A DNA stretch of 30,781 nt from Streptomyces cyaneofuscatus. GTDB lineage: Bacteria > Actinomycetota > Actinomycetes > Streptomycetales > Streptomycetaceae. A program made the position numbers and the translations under genes. The notes beneath the pieces were generated by a model. That model ran no database searches and had not been told where the DNA came from. It worked only from the letters and a program-made list of their open reading frames with translations. This document shows positions 6,327-18,158 of this stretch, one piece after another. The first letter of the stretch is position 1. Each line of letters begins with the position of its first letter. The DNA is taken from contig NZ_JOEM01000037.1 in NCBI RefSeq assembly GCF_000718135.1, positions 1-30,781 on the forward strand. Reading direction: 5' to 3'.

Positions 6327-7277
6327 ATGCAGATTCAGGATTCGCATGGGCAGTCCGCGCGCACGCACGCGGCCAAGGATCACGGACGTCTGGGCTCCGT
6401 GGGAGCGCTCGGTGTCATGAGCTCGGCCGACGCGGTGCGCTCCGCCGCGGCGATGAGCGCCGCGGCGATCGGAGCGCCCACGACAGGAGCGCCGACGACA
6501 GGAGTGCCCGCGGCAGGAACGGCTGCGGCCGGTCCCGCGGCGAGCGGGACGGCACCCACCTCACCTGCGGTGGCCACGCGTTCGGCTCCGCTGCGCGTCG
6601 ACGCGCAGCGCAATCTGGAGCATGTGCTGCGGGCCGCGCGTGAGGTGTTCGGTGAGCTGGGGTACGGCGCTCCGATGGAGGACGTGGCACGCCGCGCCCG
6701 GGTCGGAGTGGGCACCGTCTACCGGCGGTTCCCCAGCAAGGACGTGCTGGTGCGGCGGATAGCCGAGGAGGAGACCTCCAGGCTGACCGAGCAGGCGCGT
6801 ACGGCTCTGGGGCAGGAGGAGGAGCCCTGGTCGGCTCTCTCCCGCTTCCTGCGGACCTCGGTGGCATCGGGGGCGGGCAGGCTGCTGCCCCCGCAGGTGC
6901 TGCGGGTCGGGGTCGACGCGGAGGAGCCGGACGCACCGGTGAAGGGGGACGCGGGGGACGAGACCCGCGTTCCGCAGCAGCGGCAGGGCGTGGCCCAGGC
7001 CGACTTCCGTGTCGTCGGTCAGCGCACCGGGGGCGGGGACGAGCTCGAAGGCCTCGGGGAGGACTCGGGCGCGGGCGAGCTGCTGGAGGTCGTGGGCCGG
7101 CTGGTGGACCGGGCGAGGGAGTCGGGCGAGCTGCGCGCGGATGTGACGGTGGCGGATGTGCTGCTGGTCATCGCCACGGCCGCCCCGTCCCTGCCGGACG
7201 CCGCCCAGCAGGCGGCGGCCTCGGCCCGGCTGCTGGACATCCTGCTGGAGGGGCTGCGGTCCCGGCCTGCCGTCTGA
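6327..7277 (+). CDS. atrA: TetR-family regulator, AtrA-like
   Basis: 316 residues. The first ~90 residues are low-complexity Ala/Gly/Pro/Thr (tandem GAPTT units). A TetR helix-turn-helix follows at about 95-142 (AAREVFGELGYGAPMEDVARRARVGVGTVYRRFPSKDVL), given here in pieces: ...MEDVARRARVGVGTVYRRF... is the recognition part. The C-terminal ligand domain ends with the hydrophobic helices VTVADVLLVIATAAPS and ARLLDILLEGL. The middle (about 195-235) is Gly/Asp/Glu-rich and probably disordered. ATG follows GGGGGAAGTT. Facing an NDH-2 gene, it matches AtrA (SCO4118), known as an activator of the actinorhodin regulator gene and, in S. griseus, of strR. If the assignment is right, it is a global antibiotic-production regulator. 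Confidence 0.85.
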   Translation: MQIQDSHGQSARTHAAKDHGRLGSVGALGVMSSADAVRSAAAMSAAAIGAPTTGAPTTGVPAAGTAAAGPAASGTAPTSPAVATRSAPLRVDAQRNLEHVLRAAREVFGELGYGAPMEDVARRARVGVGTVYRRFPSKDVLVRRIAEEETSRLTEQARTALGQEEEPWSALSRFLRTSVASGAGRLLPPQVLRVGVDAEEPDAPVKGDAGDETRVPQQRQGVAQADFRVVGQRTGGGDELEGLGEDSGAGELLEVVGRLVDRARESGELRADVTVADVLLVIATAAPSLPDAAQQAAASARLLDILLEGLRSRPAV

Positions 7278-7470
7278 GGTCACCGTCCGGAGCTCGCTCG
7301 TATCGGTGAACGGGCGAGCGGGTTCCGGTGGGCGGACTCCGGTAGGCAGGTTCCGCAGGTCCCGGTAAGCGAAACAACCAGGTGTCATTCCCCGAAAGAG
7401 GGTTCTCTAGCACTCGCATTCGAGAAAACGCCCCGGATGAGTGGTTGGCAGGACTGAGGGTCCATCGCGA

Positions 7471-7499: not shown

Positions 7500-7532
7500 T
7501 CGGGTCCGAGGGTGTATACGGGGGCTTCCGCG

Positions 7533-9635
7533 ATGAGCGGTAACGAGCAGCAGGAAGAGCCGCTCGACGAGATCGCTGCGGCGGGTGGGGGCACGAAGGC
7601 CGACGGGATGTCCTCCGGGCAGGTGCCTGCCCAGGCGGGGCGTGGATCGTCGGATGCTTCGGACGGTGAGGCTGGAGGCGGCACCGTCCTGCCCGGGCCG
7701 TGGCCGTCCGTCGCCGATGTCGAGTCCGAGTCCGGGGACCACTCCGGGGACAGCGCTTCCGGCAGCGTCGGTGCGTACGCCGTGCCTTCGCAGCGCGAGG
7801 GCCGCGTCGGGTCCCCGGACACCGGGCTCTCCGACGCCCAGTTGATCGAGGGCATGCGCGAGGGGGACAACCTCGCCTACGACGAGCTGTTCCGGCGCCA
7901 CTCGGGCGCGGTCCGGCGGTACGCCCGTACGTGCTGCCGGGACGGGCACACCGCCGACGACCTGACCGCCGAGGTGTTCGCGCGCACGCTCCAGGCCGTA
8001 CGGGGCGGCAAGGGGCCGCAGGAGGCCGTCCGGGCCTATCTGATGACCGCCGTCCGCCATGTCGCCGCCGCCTGGACGAAGAGCGCCAAGCGGGAGCACC
8101 TGGTCGACGACTTCGCGGTGTTCGCCGCGCAGGCTTCCCGTACGTCGGAGCTCTCCGACGACGACACCCTCGACCTCGGCGCCGATGTGCTGGCGATGCA
8201 CGAGGCCGAGCAGTCGATGGCGATGGAGGCGTTCCGGAGCCTGCCGGAGCGCTGGCAGGCGGTGCTCTGGCACACCACGGTGGAGGAGGAGTCGCCCAGC
8301 GAGATCGCCCCGCTCTTCGGCCTGACCGCCAACGCCACCGCCGTCCTGGCCAGTCGGGCCCGCGAAGGGCTCAAGCAGGCCTATCTCCAGGCCCATGTGA
8401 GCCAGGCGCTCACCACCGGGGGCGACTGCGCGCAGTACGCCGACCGGCTCGGCGCCTACGCCCGGGGCGGGCTGCGGATGCGGGCCGAGCGCGGGCTGCG
8501 CAAGCACCTCGACGAGTGCGCGAAGTGCCGGGTGGCGGCGGGCGAGCTGGAGCATGTGAACGCCGGGATCCCGGCGCTGCTGCCGATCGCGGTCATCGGC
8601 TGGTTCGCCGCCGGGTACTCGCTCAAGGCCGCAGGCGTCGTGGCAGGTGGTGCCGCCGGCGCCGCCGGGGCGGGAGCCGCCGCCGCGGCCACCGGATCGG
8701 GCACCACCGGTGCTGCTGCCGGGGGTGCCGCGGGAGGTTCCTCCTCCGGGGCCACGGGAGGTGCCGCCGGAGGTGCCGCCTCCGAAGGGCTCGGCGCGCC
8801 CGCCAAAGCCGGGATCGCGGCCGCCGTCGCCGTGGCGGCCGCCGCCGGTCTGGTGTGGGCGCTCGTCGGCGACGACCAGCCGAAGCCGGAGGCCAAGGCC
8901 GCGGCGAAGCCCCCGGCGGTGGCGCCCGAGGTACCGGCACCGGAGCCGCCCGCGCCGGAGCCCGAGCCTCCGGCCGCGCCCGCACCCGACCCCGTACCGC
9001 CCGCGTCGCCCGACCCGGCCCCCGAGCCGGAGCCGGAACCGGAGCCCCCAGCACCGGAGCCCGAGCCGACCCCGCCGCCGAGCGCCGAGCCCACGCCTTC
9101 CCCCGAGCCGCCGGAGCCCGCGCCGCCCGCGCCCAGTCCTCCGCCGCCTCCGGAGCCCGACCCCAGCCCGGAACCGCCGCCCCCGCCGCCGCCCGCCCCG
9201 ACCGTCTACCAGGTCAACGAGCTCGCGTACTCCCTGCTCGGCGACCACACCGAGCCGGAGGTCGTCACCGGGCGGAGCAGCTGGATCTGGCAGCGTACGA
9301 ACGTGGCGATCGCCGAGACGCGGTACGCGCACGGGGTCACCGTGCACGCCCGCTCCTCCGTCACCATCCAGCTGAACCGCCCGTGCACCCGCTACGAGGC
9401 GATGGTCGGCGTGGACGACCTGACGATGGGGCTCGGCGCCGTCCGCTTCTCCGTCTACAACGAGGACGGGGCGCGGCTGTGGCGCTCCCCGGTGATGGCG
9501 GGCGGCGCGCCCGCCATCCCGGTCAGCGTCGGGATCGCCGGGCAGTCGTCGATCCGGCTCGTGGTGGAGCCCGAGGGGCCGCTCGGCGGGGTGGCGCTGG
9601 CCGACTGGGCGGATTCCCGGATCAGCTGCGCCTGA
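7533..9635 (+). CDS. One-piece membrane ECF sigma factor with NPCBM domain
   Basis: A 700-residue multidomain protein. After an acidic, disordered N-terminus comes ECF sigma region 2 (about 100-175, LAYDELFRRHSGAVRRYAR, TADDLTAEVFARTL) and region 4 (about 230-285, LPERWQAVLWHTTVEEES, PSEIAPLFGLTANATAVLAS). A zinc-finger anti-sigma motif H-x3-C-x2-C (HLDECAKC, near residue 325) follows. Then come a hydrophobic stretch (ALLPIAVIGWFAAGYSL), a Gly/Ala region, a second hydrophobic helix (IAAAVAVAAAAGLVWALVG), a ~100-residue Pro/Glu/Ala spacer, and a C-terminal NPCBM-type carbohydrate-binding domain (GVTVHARSSVTIQL, VGVDDLTMGLGAVRFSVYN, ADWADSRISC). This suggests a membrane-held sigma factor that senses the cell wall. 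With two helices the topology of the NPCBM end is ambiguous. ATG 7533 has GGGGG eight bases upstream. Confidence 0.88.
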   Translation: MSGNEQQEEPLDEIAAAGGGTKADGMSSGQVPAQAGRGSSDASDGEAGGGTVLPGPWPSVADVESESGDHSGDSASGSVGAYAVPSQREGRVGSPDTGLSDAQLIEGMREGDNLAYDELFRRHSGAVRRYARTCCRDGHTADDLTAEVFARTLQAVRGGKGPQEAVRAYLMTAVRHVAAAWTKSAKREHLVDDFAVFAAQASRTSELSDDDTLDLGADVLAMHEAEQSMAMEAFRSLPERWQAVLWHTTVEEESPSEIAPLFGLTANATAVLASRAREGLKQAYLQAHVSQALTTGGDCAQYADRLGAYARGGLRMRAERGLRKHLDECAKCRVAAGELEHVNAGIPALLPIAVIGWFAAGYSLKAAGVVAGGAAGAAGAGAAAAATGSGTTGAAAGGAAGGSSSGATGGAAGGAASEGLGAPAKAGIAAAVAVAAAAGLVWALVGDDQPKPEAKAAAKPPAVAPEVPAPEPPAPEPEPPAAPAPDPVPPASPDPAPEPEPEPEPPAPEPEPTPPPSAEPTPSPEPPEPAPPAPSPPPPPEPDPSPEPPPPPPPAPTVYQVNELAYSLLGDHTEPEVVTGRSSWIWQRTNVAIAETRYAHGVTVHARSSVTIQLNRPCTRYEAMVGVDDLTMGLGAVRFSVYNEDGARLWRSPVMAGGAPAIPVSVGIAGQSSIRLVVEPEGPLGGVALADWADSRISCA

Positions 9636-9704: not shown

Positions 9705-11816
9705 TCACGGCTGGAGCGTGCGCCGGGACGGGACCACGCCGCCCGCCACCGCGCGCTGGCGCGGCGCCGCCGTCCCCGTCCAGCAGGTACCCCGGCGGGC
9801 CAGCAGCCGGCGCAGCCACAGCTCGGTGGAGGCCAGTTCCGCCAGGCCGTCGAGCGGGAGCGGCTCGCCCTCGGAGGCGGCGCGCAGGGCCTTGCGTACG
9901 GTGCGGGCCTCGACCAGGCCCGCGTCGGCGAGGAGCGGGGCGTCGAAGAGAGCCATCAGGTCGGGCAGCGCGGTACGCAGGCCGGTGCGGGTGACGGCGG
10001 TGGAGGTGGCCTGGGACGGGGTGCCCCAGCCGGGCGGCAGGTCGTGGATGCCCGCCCCGCCCAGCACCCGGCGCAGGATCGCGGCCCGGGCGCCGGGCTG
10101 GACGCGGAGGGATTCGGGGAGCGCGCGGGCGGCCCGGACGACCTGGTTGTCGAGGAACGGGGCGTGGAGGCGCTGGCTGCGGATCTCGGCGGCCTGCTCC
10201 AGGATGCGGTGGTCGGCGGCGCTGCGGGCGAGGGCGGCGCGGGCGCGGGCCTCTCCGGGGCGCTGGACCGAGGTGGGCCGGATCGCCGCCTCCTGGAGGC
10301 GAACCGATACTTCCGCCAACGCCTCGCCCGTCAGCCAGCGGGCCGCAGGACCCGGGCGCGACCAGGCGAGGGCGGCGAGCGAGGCGTCGGCGGGGGTGGC
10401 GAGGTCGGGGGCGTACCGGTTGGCGTCGGGGAGGAGCCCGGCGGCGGTCTCCAGGCCGGTGCGGTACGACGTACGGGCCAGGCGGCGGGCGGCGCGGTAG
10501 ACCGTCAGCGGGACGAACAGGGAGTGCGCCGAGGGGCCTTCGGCCTTGGTGAGGGCGGCGACCGGGCGCAGGAGGTGGCGTCTGCGCCGGTCCATCAGGA
10601 GGTCGGCGAGACGGGCCGGGTGGGCGTCCAGGACCTGCCGGGCGCCATGGCCCACCAGATGGTCGGCGCTCCCTGCGGCGAGGCGGCGGCGGTGGCGTTC
10701 GGCGACGACGAGGGAGGGGCCCGGCTCGTCGGTGAGCGCTCCCGTGCCCAACGAGGCGTACGGGAGGGCCTCTTCGCCGGCCGCGACGACCACGTGGTGC
10801 AGGCGCGGGTTGGCGGCGATGGCGCGGGCGCGCTCCAGCTCGTCCTCGTGGCCGCGCGTGGTGAGGTCGTTGAAGGTGACGGCGAGCAGCCGCTCCCCGG
10901 CGCCCGTGCCGTGGCCGAGGAGGGTGCCGGGCAGTCCGGGCAGCCCGGCGGCGAGCAGGGCGAGGGTGGCGGAGGCGCTCCCGCCGGAGAGGTCGGCACC
11001 GATTCCGGCCACCGGGCCGCCCCGGGCCGCGCGCCGGTCGGCGGGGCCCATGCCGGGGACGGGTCCCGGGTCCTGCGGCAGGGTCTCGGGGGCGTGGCGG
11101 GGCGCGGTGAGCCGGGCGCGTACGGCTTCGACGAGCGCGTCCCGTACGCCCTCCACCGCGTGCACCGGGTCGACCTGGGGCGCGGCGACGGCGAGGGAGG
11201 CGACGGCCTCGTACCCGGTGATCTCCCGCGAGCCCTCCCGCAGGATCAGCGCGTGACCGGGCGGGACCCGCTTCACCCCGGCGTACGGGGTGCCGTCGCC
11301 GAGCGCCTCGGGGCTCTCCGGGCAGGCGAGCAGGGCGGCGAGGTGGCCGATGTCGAGCTGGGCCTCGATGAGGTCGGCGAGCGGCAGGGCGGCGGTGGCG
11401 TAGGCGGTGCCGTTGGCCCACGGGGTGTGGAAGACGGGCCGGGCGCCGGCGAGGTCGCCCGCGACGGTGATGCGGCGGCCGATCTGGACGACGGCCGTGT
11501 AGCTGCCCGGCCAGGCGGTGAGGTGGCGCATCGCCCCGCCCCGCGCGGCGAGCAGCCCGACGCGCAGCTGCTCGTCGGTGGCCCCGCAGCAGCCGAGGAC
11601 GGCGAGGCGCGCGGTGGGGGCGCCTTCGGGCGTGGCGACCCCGATGACGCGGATCTCGTCGGGGCGCCAGTCGCCGACCGCCCAGAGCGGATCCGGGTCG
11701 CCCCACAGGAGTTGGGAGCCCACCGGGTGGACCGTGCGCCCCTCACCGCCGTTGCCGACGGCCCCTACCGTGCCGAAGCTCGCGGCGATACTGCTCCATC
11801 CCACCAACCAACGCAT
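9705..11816 (-). CDS. Asparagine-synthetase-like protein, probably degenerate
   Basis: 703 residues with the two-part layout of class II asparagine synthetases and lasso-peptide cyclases: an N-terminal glutamine-amidotransferase-like fold and a C-terminal ATP-pyrophosphatase-like domain with a conserved-looking tail (RLHAPFLDNQVVRAARALP). Key residues are missing. It begins MRWLVG, with no Cys2 for glutamine hydrolysis, and the PP-loop SGGxDS reads SGGSAS (near residue 277), so the loop Asp is Ala. It may have lost ammonia transfer or AMP-forming chemistry, or it may act on an unknown substrate. No lasso precursor, B1/B2 protein or peptide gene lies next to it. ATG 11816 has GGAGG five bases upstream. 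Streptomyces carry a similar gene at this place (SCO4115 from memory). Confidence 0.78.
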   Translation of the reverse strand: MRWLVGWSSIAASFGTVGAVGNGGEGRTVHPVGSQLLWGDPDPLWAVGDWRPDEIRVIGVATPEGAPTARLAVLGCCGATDEQLRVGLLAARGGAMRHLTAWPGSYTAVVQIGRRITVAGDLAGARPVFHTPWANGTAYATAALPLADLIEAQLDIGHLAALLACPESPEALGDGTPYAGVKRVPPGHALILREGSREITGYEAVASLAVAAPQVDPVHAVEGVRDALVEAVRARLTAPRHAPETLPQDPGPVPGMGPADRRAARGGPVAGIGADLSGGSASATLALLAAGLPGLPGTLLGHGTGAGERLLAVTFNDLTTRGHEDELERARAIAANPRLHHVVVAAGEEALPYASLGTGALTDEPGPSLVVAERHRRRLAAGSADHLVGHGARQVLDAHPARLADLLMDRRRRHLLRPVAALTKAEGPSAHSLFVPLTVYRAARRLARTSYRTGLETAAGLLPDANRYAPDLATPADASLAALAWSRPGPAARWLTGEALAEVSVRLQEAAIRPTSVQRPGEARARAALARSAADHRILEQAAEIRSQRLHAPFLDNQVVRAARALPESLRVQPGARAAILRRVLGGAGIHDLPPGWGTPSQATSTAVTRTGLRTALPDLMALFDAPLLADAGLVEARTVRKALRAASEGEPLPLDGLAELASTELWLRRLLARRGTCWTGTAAPRQRAVAGGVVPSRRTLQP

Positions 11817-12686
11817 CGCCGCCTCCACAGGCTGTGGACAAGCGGCGCACCGTACCGAGTCGCATCGCCGCTGCGGGACATGCTGCCACGACAGGGCCGC
11901 AGGAGAGGGGGTACGGGCAGCGCACGCCGGATGAGCATGCGCCCCTGGCAAAGGCCGGGCCCCCGGCTCGGCCCCGTCTTCACCGCATCACCGGCAACGG
12001 AAGTGCCGATTCCGGGAGTTAACACCGCAAGCACTGCCGTCGGTCACGCTCACCACCGCATCGGATTCCGCCGGCGCCGCCGGGGCCGCCGGCCCGGGAG
12101 AGCGGTCGAAATCCGGCCATAGCCGGACCGTTGGCCAGACCGTCACCGGACAGTCGATATTCAGCCATTCTCGTCGGGCTCCGCCGCTCGCGCACACCCG
12201 TCCGCGCCCCCCGCGGCGGACCCTCCCACGCACAGTCCGGGAGGTGGGCCTCACCTCCCGGACCGGTCCGCCGCCCGCGGGGAATGGAGCGGCGGTATCC
12301 CCCAGCCCACTGAGTCCAGTGCAGTGAGCCGACCCACGCGGTACCCAGCCAAGCCCCTCCCGTACGGGCCGGGCCAGAGCGCACGGCCGGGCGCACGGCC
12401 ACACGCCAGGGGCACGCCCCGCCCCGGCACGCGCACCCCCGGAGCGCGGACCCCGCCGCCCGCACGGACAACAATCCCGCCATACGGACGTCTGCCCCTT
12501 AACGGTAGGGATGGGGAGAACTACGCTGTGTTTACTGGTGTTCTCAGCAGGGGGGCATATTCCTCGGGGCTCGGCCACATGCGTGTGCAGGCGGAGTACG
12601 GGGGTTCGAACCTGGGGAGCATCGGTACGAATGCCGCGCGCCGTCCTCGGTGACGCGGCGGCTGTCTGTGTGTCGAGGGGTGGCGC
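11817..12686. other. 870-base divergent intergenic region
   Basis: Between the starts of the asparagine-synthetase-like gene and the sporulation regulator. No frame has convincing start, ribosome site and codon use. It holds a strong hairpin at 12235-12263, a CACTG-AGTC-CAGTG palindrome near 12308, and AT-richer DNA from about 12470 to 12560 that probably carries the promoter of the plus-strand gene (TAGGGAT and TACGCT are possible -10 boxes). It is long enough for a small RNA or a small protein gene. Confidence 0.5.
12235..12263. terminator. Strong hairpin inside a divergent region
   Basis: A perfect 12-bp stem (GTCCGGGAGGTG paired with CACCTCCCGGAC) with a 5-base loop GGCCT. It looks like a factor-independent terminator without a U-run, yet neither flanking gene ends here. 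It may end a short transcript or be an operator or mRNA leader structure. Confidence 0.5.
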
Positions 12687-14300
12687 ATGTCCAGGGAGCA
12701 ACGCGGGCCGAACGAGAAGCTCGGCACGGTTCTCGCCCTCGCGGGAATCAGTAACGCCGGGCTCGCCCGGCGGGTCAACGACCTCGGAGCACAGCGCGGT
12801 CTGACACTTCGCTACGACAAGACCTCGGTGGCCCGGTGGGTCGCCAAGGGGATGGTGCCGCAGGGTGCGGCGCCTCATCTGATCGCGGCGGCGATCGGGG
12901 CCAAGCTCGGCCGGCCGGTCCCGCTGCACGAGATCGGTCTCGCCGACGCGGACCCCGCGCCGGAGGTCGGCCTCGCCTTCCCCCGGGACGTGGGCGAGGC
13001 GGTGAGGTCGGCGACCGAGCTGTACCGGCTGGATCTGGCCGGGCGCAGGGGCGGCGGCGGGATCTGGCAGTCGCTGGCCGGTTCGTTCGCGGTGAGCGCC
13101 TATGCGACCCCCGCGTCCCGCTGGCTGATAACCCCCGCCGATCCGTCGGTCGCCCGCGACCCGACGGCGGCACAGGCGGCGATCCTCGGCGCCCGCAGCG
13201 GCGGCCAGGACTCCCCGGGCGCGCCCGGCCCACGCGGACCGCAGGGCGCTCCGGACGGCCGTGGCGCACACATCCTGCACACACCCGGGGGCGCGCCGGG
13301 CGGCTCCGGCCTCGGCTCCGGCCCCGTTTCCGGCTCCGTGCCCGTCCAGCCCGGCCCGGAGTCCGTCGCGGACGCCTCGCCGCTGCGGGTGGGCCACAGC
13401 GACGTCATGAAGCTGCGCGAGGCGGCCCAGGACGCCCGGCGCTGGGACTCCAAGTACGGCGGCGGCGACTGGCGTTCCTCCATGGTGCCGGAGTGCTTAC
13501 GCGTCGACGCCGCACCCCTGCTCCTCGGGTCGTACACCGACGAGGTGGGCCGCGCCCTGTTCGGCGCGTCGGCCGAGCTGACCCGGCTCGCGGGCTGGAT
13601 GGCGTTCGACACCGGCCAGCAGGAGGCCGCCCAGCGCTACTACATCCAGGCCCTGCGCCTGGCCCGCGCCGCCGCCGACGTACCGCTCGGCGGCTATGTC
13701 CTCGCCTCGATGTCCCTCCAGGCGACCTACCGGGGCTTCGCCGACGAGGGCGTCGACCTCGCGCAGGCCGCCGTGGAGCGCAACCGAGGGCTGGCGACCG
13801 CCCGCACCATGAGCTTCTTCCGGCTGGTGGAGGCCCGCGCCCACGCGAAGGCGGGCGACGCACCGGCCGCGGGGGCCGCGCTCAAGGGCGCCGAGAGCTG
13901 GCTGGAGCGGTCCCGGGCGGGCGACGCCGACCCGTCCTGGCTCGGCTTCTACAGCTACGACCGGTTCGCCGCCGATGCCGCCGAGTGCTACCGCGACCTC
14001 AAGGCGCCCCGCCAGGTGCGGCGCTTCACCGAGCAGGCGCTCTCCCGGCCGACCGACGAGTTCGTCCGCAGCCACGGACTGCGGCTCGTCGTCTCCGCCG
14101 TCGCCGAACTGGAGTCGGGGAACCTGGACGCGGCCTGCGCGGCGGGCACCCGGGCGGTCGAGGTGGCCGGCCGGATCTCCTCGGCGCGCACCACCGAGTA
14201 CGTACGCGATCTTCTCCACCGCCTGGAGCCGTACGGGGACGAGCCGCGCGTCGCCGAGCTGCGGGAGCGCGCCCGCCCGCTGCTGGTGACCCAGGTCTGA
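12687..14300 (+). CDS. Orf1590/NsdA-type sporulation regulator, TTA codon
   Basis: 537 residues (about 56 kDa). The N-terminal ~85 residues resemble a helix-turn-helix ([35 protein letters not shown]). A Gly/Pro-rich linker (about 160-230) follows. The C-terminal half is helical and TPR-like ([68 protein letters not shown]). I recognise the family as the sporulation-associated protein of S. griseus (Orf1590) and S. coelicolor SCO4114, related to NsdA. ATG has GAGGGG upstream. Leu271 is encoded by TTA (13497-13499), so translation should depend on the bldA tRNA. An internal ATG at codon 56 (12852), preceded by AAGGGG, could give a shorter form without the helix-turn-helix; two such products were reported for Orf1590 as I recall. 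Confidence 0.8.
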
Positions 14301-16685: not shown

Positions 16686-18158
16686 GTGTCCGACGGTTCC
16701 GTGCAGTACCAGCAGCGGCAGCCGGCGGTCCCGGTCCTCCACGAGCAGCGGCCCGAGGAGGTGCTGGGCGCCGTGCCGGAGCGCGGCCGGTGGACGTACC
16801 GGCCGCGCCGCGTCGGCATGGTGTGGCGCAGCAAGGTGTTCCGCGCCGGAACGGTGATCGTGGCGCTCGCGCTGTGCTGGCTGGTGATCCTGGCCCTGGT
16901 CCGCGAGCAGACGGGCCCGGAGGGATTCGTGGTCGGCCTCGGCCTGGCGGTGCTTCCGGTACCGCTCCTGCTCGCCGCCTTCCGCTGGCTGGACCGGGTC
17001 GAGCCGGCCCCCTGGCGGAACCTGATCTTCTCCTTCGCCTGGGGCGCGTGCGCCGCCGCACTCGTCGCGATCATCGCCAACTCGTTCGCGATGCGCTGGA
17101 TCGCCACCGCGACGGCCGACCCGGCGAGCGCCGACACGCTGGGGGCGACGGTGATCGCCCCGGTCGTGGAGGAGAGCGCCAAGGCCGTCTCGATCCTGCT
17201 GGTCTTCATCTTCCGGAGACGGGAGTTCCGGGGCGTGGTCGACGGCATCGTGATCGCCGGCTTCACCGCGACCGGCTTCGCCTTCACCGAGAACATCCTC
17301 TACCTGGGCAACGCCTTCGACGAGGACCAGCAGCTCGGCAGCTCCGGGATCGCCTCGGTGACCGCCGGGACGTTCTTCGTACGGATCGTGATGTCACCGT
17401 TCGCGCATCCGCTGTTCACGGTCCTCACCGGCCTCGGCTTCGGCTTCGCGGCCATCAGCGCCCGCCACCACCGGGTCCGCCGGATCGCCCTGCCCGTGCT
17501 CGGCCTGCTCTTCGCGATGGGCCTGCACGCCCTGTGGAACGGCTCGTCGGCCTTCGGCCCGTACGGCTTCTACGCGGTGTACGGGATGGTGATGGTCCCG
17601 GTCTTCGCGCTGGTGACCTGGCTGGCGGTCTGGTGGCGCCGGCGGGAGCTGCGGACGCTCGCCGCCGAACTCCCCGCATACGCCACGGCCGGCTGGCTGA
17701 CCCCGGCCGAACCCCTGGCGCTCTCCTCGATGCGGACCCGGGGCGTGGCCCGCGACCTGGCCCGCCACTGGCACGGGAAGCAGGACCGGTCGCGGGGGCG
17801 GGCGGCGGCCCGCGCGGTGGCCGAGTACGAGTCGTTCGCGACGACCCTGGCCGGCCTGCGCCGCCGCGCCCGCCACGACGCGGTGGGCCCGGACTTCGCC
17901 GCCCGGGAGCGGGAGCTGCTGCACCACCTCTGGCAACGCCGGGCCATCGCGGGCCCGGCCCTCACGCACGCGGCCCAGATGACCGGCACCGGCCCCTGCC
18001 CGCACCCGTATCCGTACCGCCCGCCGATGCCGCCGTACGGACAGGGGCAGGGACACGGGTACGGCTACGGGTATGGCTACGGGTACGGGCAGGGGCACGG
18101 GACCGCGTACGGCAGCCCGCCCCCGCAGCCGTACCCGTACGGCCGACACAGCCGGTAA
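16686..18158 (+). CDS. PrsW-family intramembrane metalloprotease
   Basis: 490 residues with about eight membrane helices between residues 45 and 320. PrsW hallmarks are present: the EE motif in a helix (APVVEESAKAVSILL), FAFTENILYL, SPFAHPLFT and GLHALWNGSS, which supply the glutamates and histidines of the active site. In Bacillus, PrsW makes the first cut in the anti-sigma factor RsiW; in Streptomyces the substrate is unknown. The cytoplasmic tail is long and ends in an unusual Pro/Gly/Tyr-rich stretch with GYGYGYGYGYG (18000-18140). GTG 16686 is supported by the leaderless promoter pattern and GAGG. A membrane-bound sigma factor, a possible substrate, is encoded 7 kb upstream (inference only). 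Confidence 0.88.
   Translation: MSDGSVQYQQRQPAVPVLHEQRPEEVLGAVPERGRWTYRPRRVGMVWRSKVFRAGTVIVALALCWLVILALVREQTGPEGFVVGLGLAVLPVPLLLAAFRWLDRVEPAPWRNLIFSFAWGACAAALVAIIANSFAMRWIATATADPASADTLGATVIAPVVEESAKAVSILLVFIFRRREFRGVVDGIVIAGFTATGFAFTENILYLGNAFDEDQQLGSSGIASVTAGTFFVRIVMSPFAHPLFTVLTGLGFGFAAISARHHRVRRIALPVLGLLFAMGLHALWNGSSAFGPYGFYAVYGMVMVPVFALVTWLAVWWRRRELRTLAAELPAYATAGWLTPAEPLALSSMRTRGVARDLARHWHGKQDRSRGRAAARAVAEYESFATTLAGLRRRARHDAVGPDFAARERELLHHLWQRRAIAGPALTHAAQMTGTGPCPHPYPYRPPMPPYGQGQGHGYGYGYGYGYGQGHGTAYGSPPPQPYPYGRHSR

Follow-up and report, generated by a model that had tools for sequence, protein, structure and literature searches.

An ECF52-type sigma factor of Streptomyces cyaneofuscatus with a fused zinc anti-sigma domain and a predicted carbohydrate-binding head

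The stretch of DNA analysed here (the window, 30,781 nucleotides from Streptomyces cyaneofuscatus) carries on its plus strand a single unbroken frame of 700 codons that runs from ATG 7533 to the stop at 9635. An alternative start, GTG 7512, would give a product of 707 amino acids, and residue numbers for the sigma protein are those of this 707-residue version; protein P0001, which is 99% identical and seemingly the same protein, has 700 residues, corresponding to ATG 7533. The features of the locus are as follows.

6327..7277, plus strand: TetR-family regulator, atrA-like, the upstream neighbour and synteny marker
7533..9635, plus strand: gene for an ECF52-type sigma factor, the orthologue of SCO4117 as judged by architecture and synteny
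7887..8093, plus strand: sigma-70 region 2, residues 126-194 (Pfam PF04542, Sigma70_r2, E 3e-10)
8223..8366, plus strand: sigma-70 region 4, residues 238-285 (Pfam PF08281, Sigma70_r4_2, E 9.8e-4, 19.2 bits against a curated cut-off of 25.7)
8427..8531, plus strand: zinc anti-sigma (class I ASD) domain (zf-HC2, PF13490; ligands C306, H332, C336 and C339)
8559..8633, plus strand: conserved hydrophobic stretch, residues 350-374, with K372 as its one charged residue
8808..8870, plus strand: likely sole transmembrane helix, residues 433-453 (hydropathy, charge pattern)
8871..9200, plus strand: proline-rich spacer of 110 residues (454-563), 57 of them Pro
9201..9629, plus strand: NPCBM or CBM51-type beta-sandwich (profile, fold; two invariant cysteines, C625 and C706)
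9705..11951, minus strand: asparagine-synthase-like protein, the conserved downstream neighbour
16686..18158, plus strand: intramembrane metalloprotease of the PrsW family (PF13367, E 3e-57), the strongest of the genome's three PrsW matches

The first-pass annotation had read at 7533..9635 one frame with ECF regions 2 and 4, a zinc-finger anti-sigma motif, a proline spacer of about 100 residues, and an NPCBM-like domain, and each of these readings is borne out. Region 4 alone stays below its Pfam cut-off, and the NCBIfam model TIGR02937 (sigma70-ECF) covers residues 122-290 with 57.3 bits, above its cut-off of 42.9. The zf-HC2 match at residues 306-340 scores 24.8 bits against a cut-off of 22.2, and the Pfam NPCBM match spans residues 594-704 with an E value of 3.2e-27. 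The traits of group ECF52 are found in the protein: sigma regions 2 and 4, a zinc finger (pfam13490), at least one predicted transmembrane helix, and a proline-rich extension with an NPCBM-type domain, the last assigned with Pfam NPCBM rather than with the SMART model smart00776 named for ECF52. The ECF52 assignment is thus one by architecture.

By architecture and synteny, the protein is an orthologue of SCO4117 of S. coelicolor, which is known here from its published description. SCO4117 is presented in PMC5826349 as the first characterised ECF52 member, with an ECF domain, a zinc finger (pfam13490), a transmembrane region, a proline-rich stretch and a carbohydrate module (smart00776), encoded downstream of atrA; orthologues are reported there in S. 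griseus and other species. Two sequence-driven protein searches gave 2828 and 3073 matches, the best 120 of each being considered; among those of the first, the closest named proteins are from Streptomyces, the top one being a full-length S. cyaneofuscatus protein with 97% identity. The neighbourhood was compared in 80 named loci, the best of 361 confirmed ones; 79 are titled Streptomyces and one [Kitasatospora] papulosa. All 80 have an atrA-like TetR gene upstream in the same orientation (59-95% identity in the best segment), and 66 have the asparagine-synthase-like gene downstream; the 14 loci that lack the latter are mostly short contigs, and one (L033) looks rearranged. The order of TetR gene and sigma gene agrees with the SCO4118-SCO4117 order reported in PMC5826349, from which the name atrA was taken by position and not from the SCO4118 sequence.

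The full fusion is intact in 61 of the 80 named loci, and a fragment of the sigma protein comprising the sigma4/zinc-finger part (residues 225-399) is matched at E 1e-6 or better in 143 of 394 genomes of the class; the fusion is therefore not a product of chance. The window's own genome contains one match to this fragment. Contig ends cut 11 of the 80 loci, and in eight others (L017, L023, L033, L054, L058, L059, L068 and L071) the NPCBM domain is absent or masked, lies in another frame or is encoded on the opposite strand. Runs of unknown residues occur in L023 and L068; in L033 the head is gone together with the gene that follows, and in L059 the strand of the head is reversed, arrangements that look like misassembly or rearrangement. 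In L017, L054, L058 and L071, the frame breaks before the NPCBM domain, within the proline-rich spacer or a Gly/Ala-rich linker; sequencing or assembly error in these GC-rich repeats is the likeliest explanation, and frame slippage may also be the source. A stop within the spacer is reported for S. clavuligerus in PMC5826349. In a divergent Streptomyces relative (L153, 9165-10934; 63% identity in the best segment), the frame ends at the expected position of the head and shows no NPCBM match.

The zinc ligands C306, H332, C336 and C339 are all four kept in each of the 46 proteins compared and in each of 38 trimmed domains from the same sources. Class I zinc anti-sigma domains have an upstream Cys or His ligand besides their HX3CX2C motif. 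Both are present in the window's protein, the motif being the one given for the class in PMC7406223. A profile built from these trimmed domains (38 of 43 anti-sigma stretches) matches the solved zinc anti-sigma chains RslA (E 2e-6), ChrR (E 6.2e-4) and RsiW (E 0.0086), with all three matches stopping short of the solved helix 4. In separate sigma/anti-sigma pairs, coevolution analysis places helix 1 of the anti-sigma domain in contact with region 4 and helix 4 in contact with region 2 (PMC7406223). The hydrophobic stretch 350-374 falls perhaps about where helix 4 would lie, and it is perhaps this helix, or a helix that dips into the membrane, rather than a full crossing. In an AlphaFold model of residues 104-461, a single helix spans 337-379, its confidence dropping from about 88 to 53, and another, detached from it, covers 432-451 at a pLDDT below 50; with a pTM of 0.45, the model does not settle how the zinc domain docks. 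Structure comparison of this model aligned model residues 1-196, that is, the sigma part, leaving the anti-sigma part outside the alignment, so that the absence of anti-sigma chains among its matches is meaningless.

The side of the membrane on which the NPCBM domain lies depends on how many hydrophobic stretches cross it. ECF52 proteins are described with a variable number of transmembrane helices, and the first-pass annotation had counted two here. Two hydrophobic stretches do exist, at about 349-371 and at 433-453, but only the second resembles an ordinary membrane helix: its Kyte-Doolittle mean reaches 2.28 over 19 residues compared with 1.73 for the first, and on a crude biological insertion scale it scores -0.17, whereas the first scores 4.1 or worse. 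As the sigma part must be inside the cell, an external NPCBM domain requires an odd number of crossings; two would leave the domain in the cytoplasm, contrary to the sensing of an outside sugar that the same annotation had proposed.

Charges flanking the last helix bear on this question. Across 40 distant relatives, K+R averages 1.7 before the helix and 0.43 after it, and D+E 0.28 before and 2.35 after; net charge falls across the helix in 35, stays equal in 4 and rises in 1, and K+R alone is higher before it in 24, equal in 12 and lower in 4. This pattern suggests that the linker is cytoplasmic and the spacer outside, and that 350-374 is cytoplasmic or dips into the membrane. Among 20 Streptomyces proteins the pattern is weak: net charge falls across the helix in 10, stays equal in 7 and rises in 3, whereas K+R alone is higher before it in 1, equal in 7 and higher after it in 12, because the spacer begins with lysines; the automatic finder misplaced the helix in two Streptomyces rows of these counts (L154 and L159). 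The sequence evidence, mainly from the distant relatives, thus favours one crossing at 433-453 and an external NPCBM domain.

If both stretches (about 353-371 and 433-453) were true membrane helices, sigma part and NPCBM domain would both be cytoplasmic and no outside sugar could be sensed. Both are hydrophobic in most members examined, residues 350 to 371 are free of charge with a low helical moment (0.07-0.11), and the Streptomyces K+R count lends no support to a cytoplasmic linker. Against this arrangement, a linker that looks cytoplasmic by net charge and by K+R in the distant set is hard to reconcile with a full crossing by the first stretch, and 350-374 contains a proline and is more conserved than the last helix, with a column entropy of 0.38 against 0.81 bits in 61 near relatives. 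In the 40 distant relatives the entropies are 1.68 and 2.27 bits, though the identity of 350-374 to the window is no higher there than that of the last helix (0.25 vs 0.30). The solved CBM51 relatives among the structure matches, which belong to glycoside hydrolases and the ZmpB protease, and the two invariant NPCBM cysteines, which suit an oxidising outside, also speak against two crossings, an arrangement that is accordingly quite improbable.

The NPCBM domain carries exactly two cysteines, C625 and C706, both kept in 62 of 62 sequences, the window's included, and the pair would suit a disulphide outside the cell. The model of the domain (pLDDT 93.6, pTM 0.89) has the Akkermansia alpha-1,3-galactosidase 8pvs as its top Foldseek match (27% identity), and it also matches the CBM51 structures 7jrl (with GlcNAc; E 2.5e-9) and 2vmg (with methyl-galactose; E 2.6e-8). 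Judged from this fold, the head is a predicted carbohydrate-binding domain of CBM51 type, and the ligands of structures such as 7jrl and 2vmg are not transferable to it because identity is only 12-23%. A second NPCBM domain in the genome lies within a 1344-residue open frame.

Outside the genus, the front half of the protein persists while its end changes. Sixty stretches were picked from the listed matches to residues 225-399, forty of them outside Streptomyces (39 genomes) and twenty inside; relatives found in this way may span more than one ECF group, the borders of which depend on the published models. None of the 40 loci outside the genus keeps the neighbourhood, and only isolated weak matches to it occur (PrsW near L139, SpoIIE near L140 and L148). 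The alignment comprised 45 of the 48 proteins of L113-L160 plus the window's, L114 and L155 being left out because they run off their contigs and L121 because it is nearly identical to L117. Domains were scanned in 46 proteins, namely 38 distant ones, seven from other Streptomyces and the window's: region 2 was found in 46, region 4 in 40 and zf-HC2 in 39, and the heads included ricin-type lectin (PF14200) in nine, Ig domains in three, F5/8 type C in one, DUF642 in one, and a few further Ig-like or unknown domains. An NPCBM domain was present in only two of the 46, the window's protein and, by neighbourhood comparison, L154; the remaining C-terminal ends matched no head family among the 25 domain families shown. 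These head counts are totals per family, given without assignment to individual proteins. The front half is thus constant and the end exchangeable. Variable ends are already in print, and the count of exchanged heads is added here; for some ECF52 and ECF53 proteins, predicted glycosyl hydrolase and carbohydrate-binding domains are described in PMC10766802, without experimental validation. It is quite possible, if not quite probable, that a single membrane-anchored sigma/anti-sigma chassis with interchangeable outside heads (CBM51, ricin-type lectin, Ig-like and discoidin) is used across the Actinomycetes, in which 350-374 would be a sigma-locking helix and not a crossing, leaving a single crossing. 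If so, different surface ligands would be plugged directly into a sigma factor.

The function of the Streptomyces form can be approached through its orthologue. The first-pass annotation had called this kind of sensing little studied, a view that does not hold: ECF52 is described by this very architecture, and SCO4117 has been knocked out, profiled by RNA-seq and truncated (PMC5826349, PMC8999054). According to PMC5826349, the SCO4117 knockout changed the expression of 56 genes, 46 of which were lower in the mutant, and the gene is required for timely development and normal antibiotic production. The window's domains are real, well conserved and correctly read, and they belong to a described kind with a studied orthologue; the crossing-parity argument on topology, the invariant cysteine pair and the exchanged-head count are the additions made here.

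On balance, the best explanation is probably that of an ECF52 SCO4117 orthologue that unites in a single chain a sigma factor, a zinc anti-sigma domain, one membrane helix and a CBM51-type head outside the cytoplasm, with ligand-driven release. For ECF52, ECF48 and ECF53, activation by proteolysis is expected according to PMC8999054. The release or shape change put forward in the first-pass annotation agrees with the published proposal of how activation would occur. At rest, by analogy with homologous anti-sigma domains, the fused zinc domain would mask regions 2 and 4 at the membrane, while the proline-rich arm would hold the head out through the wall, where it might meet a wall, mycelial-surface or environmental glycan. 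Glycan binding, or a change in it, would then either bring about proteolytic release of the sigma part or shift the protein so that the zinc domain loosens, as proposed in print. The freed sigma factor would finally act on development and antibiotic genes, for which the need for SCO4117 is shown by knockout and RNA-seq.

The fused domain may also be more than a simple inhibitor: without any proteolysis, the membrane part could serve as a scaffold or positive cofactor that sustains the activity of the membrane-bound sigma factor. In favour of such a role, fused extensions are required for activity in other ECF groups, ECF41 among them. The main contrary fact for simple inhibition is the sigma-only SCO4117 strain of S. 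coelicolor described in PMC5826349, which was partly defective and not hyperactive: actinorhodin was delayed and CDA lower, sporulation lay between that of wild type and knockout, and its own transcript rose 1.3-fold. Since the strain was not hyperactive, activity may also require the extension, or the sigma part may be unstable once free. A positive role of the extension is thus a serious rival to the simple inhibitor, but the invariance of all four zinc ligands and the match of the zinc domain to the solved anti-sigma domains of RslA, ChrR and RsiW weigh against a cofactor acting without proteolysis, which appears rather unlikely.

Ligand-driven release by proteolysis would call for proteases, and the genome has matches to Peptidase_M50 (site-2 protease homologues) at three places, besides those to PrsW. 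The PrsW gene of the window could encode a dedicated site-1 protease that releases the sigma factor, and B. subtilis PrsW cuts the anti-sigma factor RsiW. The family match is strong and the gene is kept close by in Streptomyces, being found in 16 of the 80 named loci, and in all 5 of those with a flank extending well beyond the gene that precedes it. Yet at least four other genes intervene between the sigma gene and prsW, the entire block is conserved in Streptomyces, so that closeness may be mere inheritance, and a PrsW match lies near only 1 of the 40 distant relatives (27% identity, E 1.7e-9, weak), two of whose stretches are only 4.8 and 6 kb long. A dedicated role for this protease is therefore highly improbable, and PrsW was set aside as the partner, given its single occurrence among distant relatives despite its conservation in Streptomyces.

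Several known systems resemble this one in part. SCO4117 shares the domain order, the TetR gene upstream and the single copy per genome, being the only ECF52 of S. coelicolor (PMC5826349). ECF48 and ECF53 of Actinobacteria likewise carry a zinc-finger anti-sigma part fused to the C-terminus, together with one or two membrane helices, and IutY of Pseudomonas putida (ECF243) likewise joins a sigma factor and a membrane anti-sigma factor in one chain, activated through Prc and RseP cleavage (PMC8999054). IutY differs in that it responds to aerobactin, a siderophore, via cell-surface signalling, and a carbohydrate domain goes unmentioned in the passages of PMC8999054 that deal with it. The CBM51 domains of Clostridium perfringens GH95, GH98 and ZmpB have the same fold as the head, but they are attached to enzymes and share only 12-23% identity with it. 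In the SigI/RsgI system of Clostridium thermocellum, sigma and anti-sigma factors are separate proteins, and the sigma factor is not of ECF type. There, the membrane anti-sigma factor senses outside substrates and RseP cuts its membrane helix (PMC12203970).

With sensor, inhibitor and anchor within one chain, a sigma factor would be about as simple as membrane signalling devices of its type get. In Streptomyces, the gene adjoins that of the antibiotic regulator atrA, and SCO4117 has effects on both development and antibiotics; surface glycans could thus be linked, via its ligand, to antibiotic production. The findings on topology and exchanged heads make the bound ligand and the membrane side of the head directly testable questions.

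Upstream of the sigma gene, 74 aligned sequences, the window's included, show conserved blocks at about 7430-7450 and at 7500-7535, up to the start codon. The published SCO4117 motif CSGY-N17-SRHA is absent from both strands of the 255 bases before ATG 7533, but it is so loose that 0.84 matches are expected by chance, and its absence says little. Downstream, about 3.5 kb separate the sigma and asparagine-synthase genes in L018 (9388-12829) and also in L012, L021 and L027; the insert holds a minus-strand open frame of about 1100 codons from stop to stop, which looks on reading like an AfsR/SARP-type regulator. Farther along the window, a 537-residue protein encoded on the plus strand at 12687-14300 gives no Pfam match at E 1e-3, and most named loci with a flank of sufficient length match it strongly.
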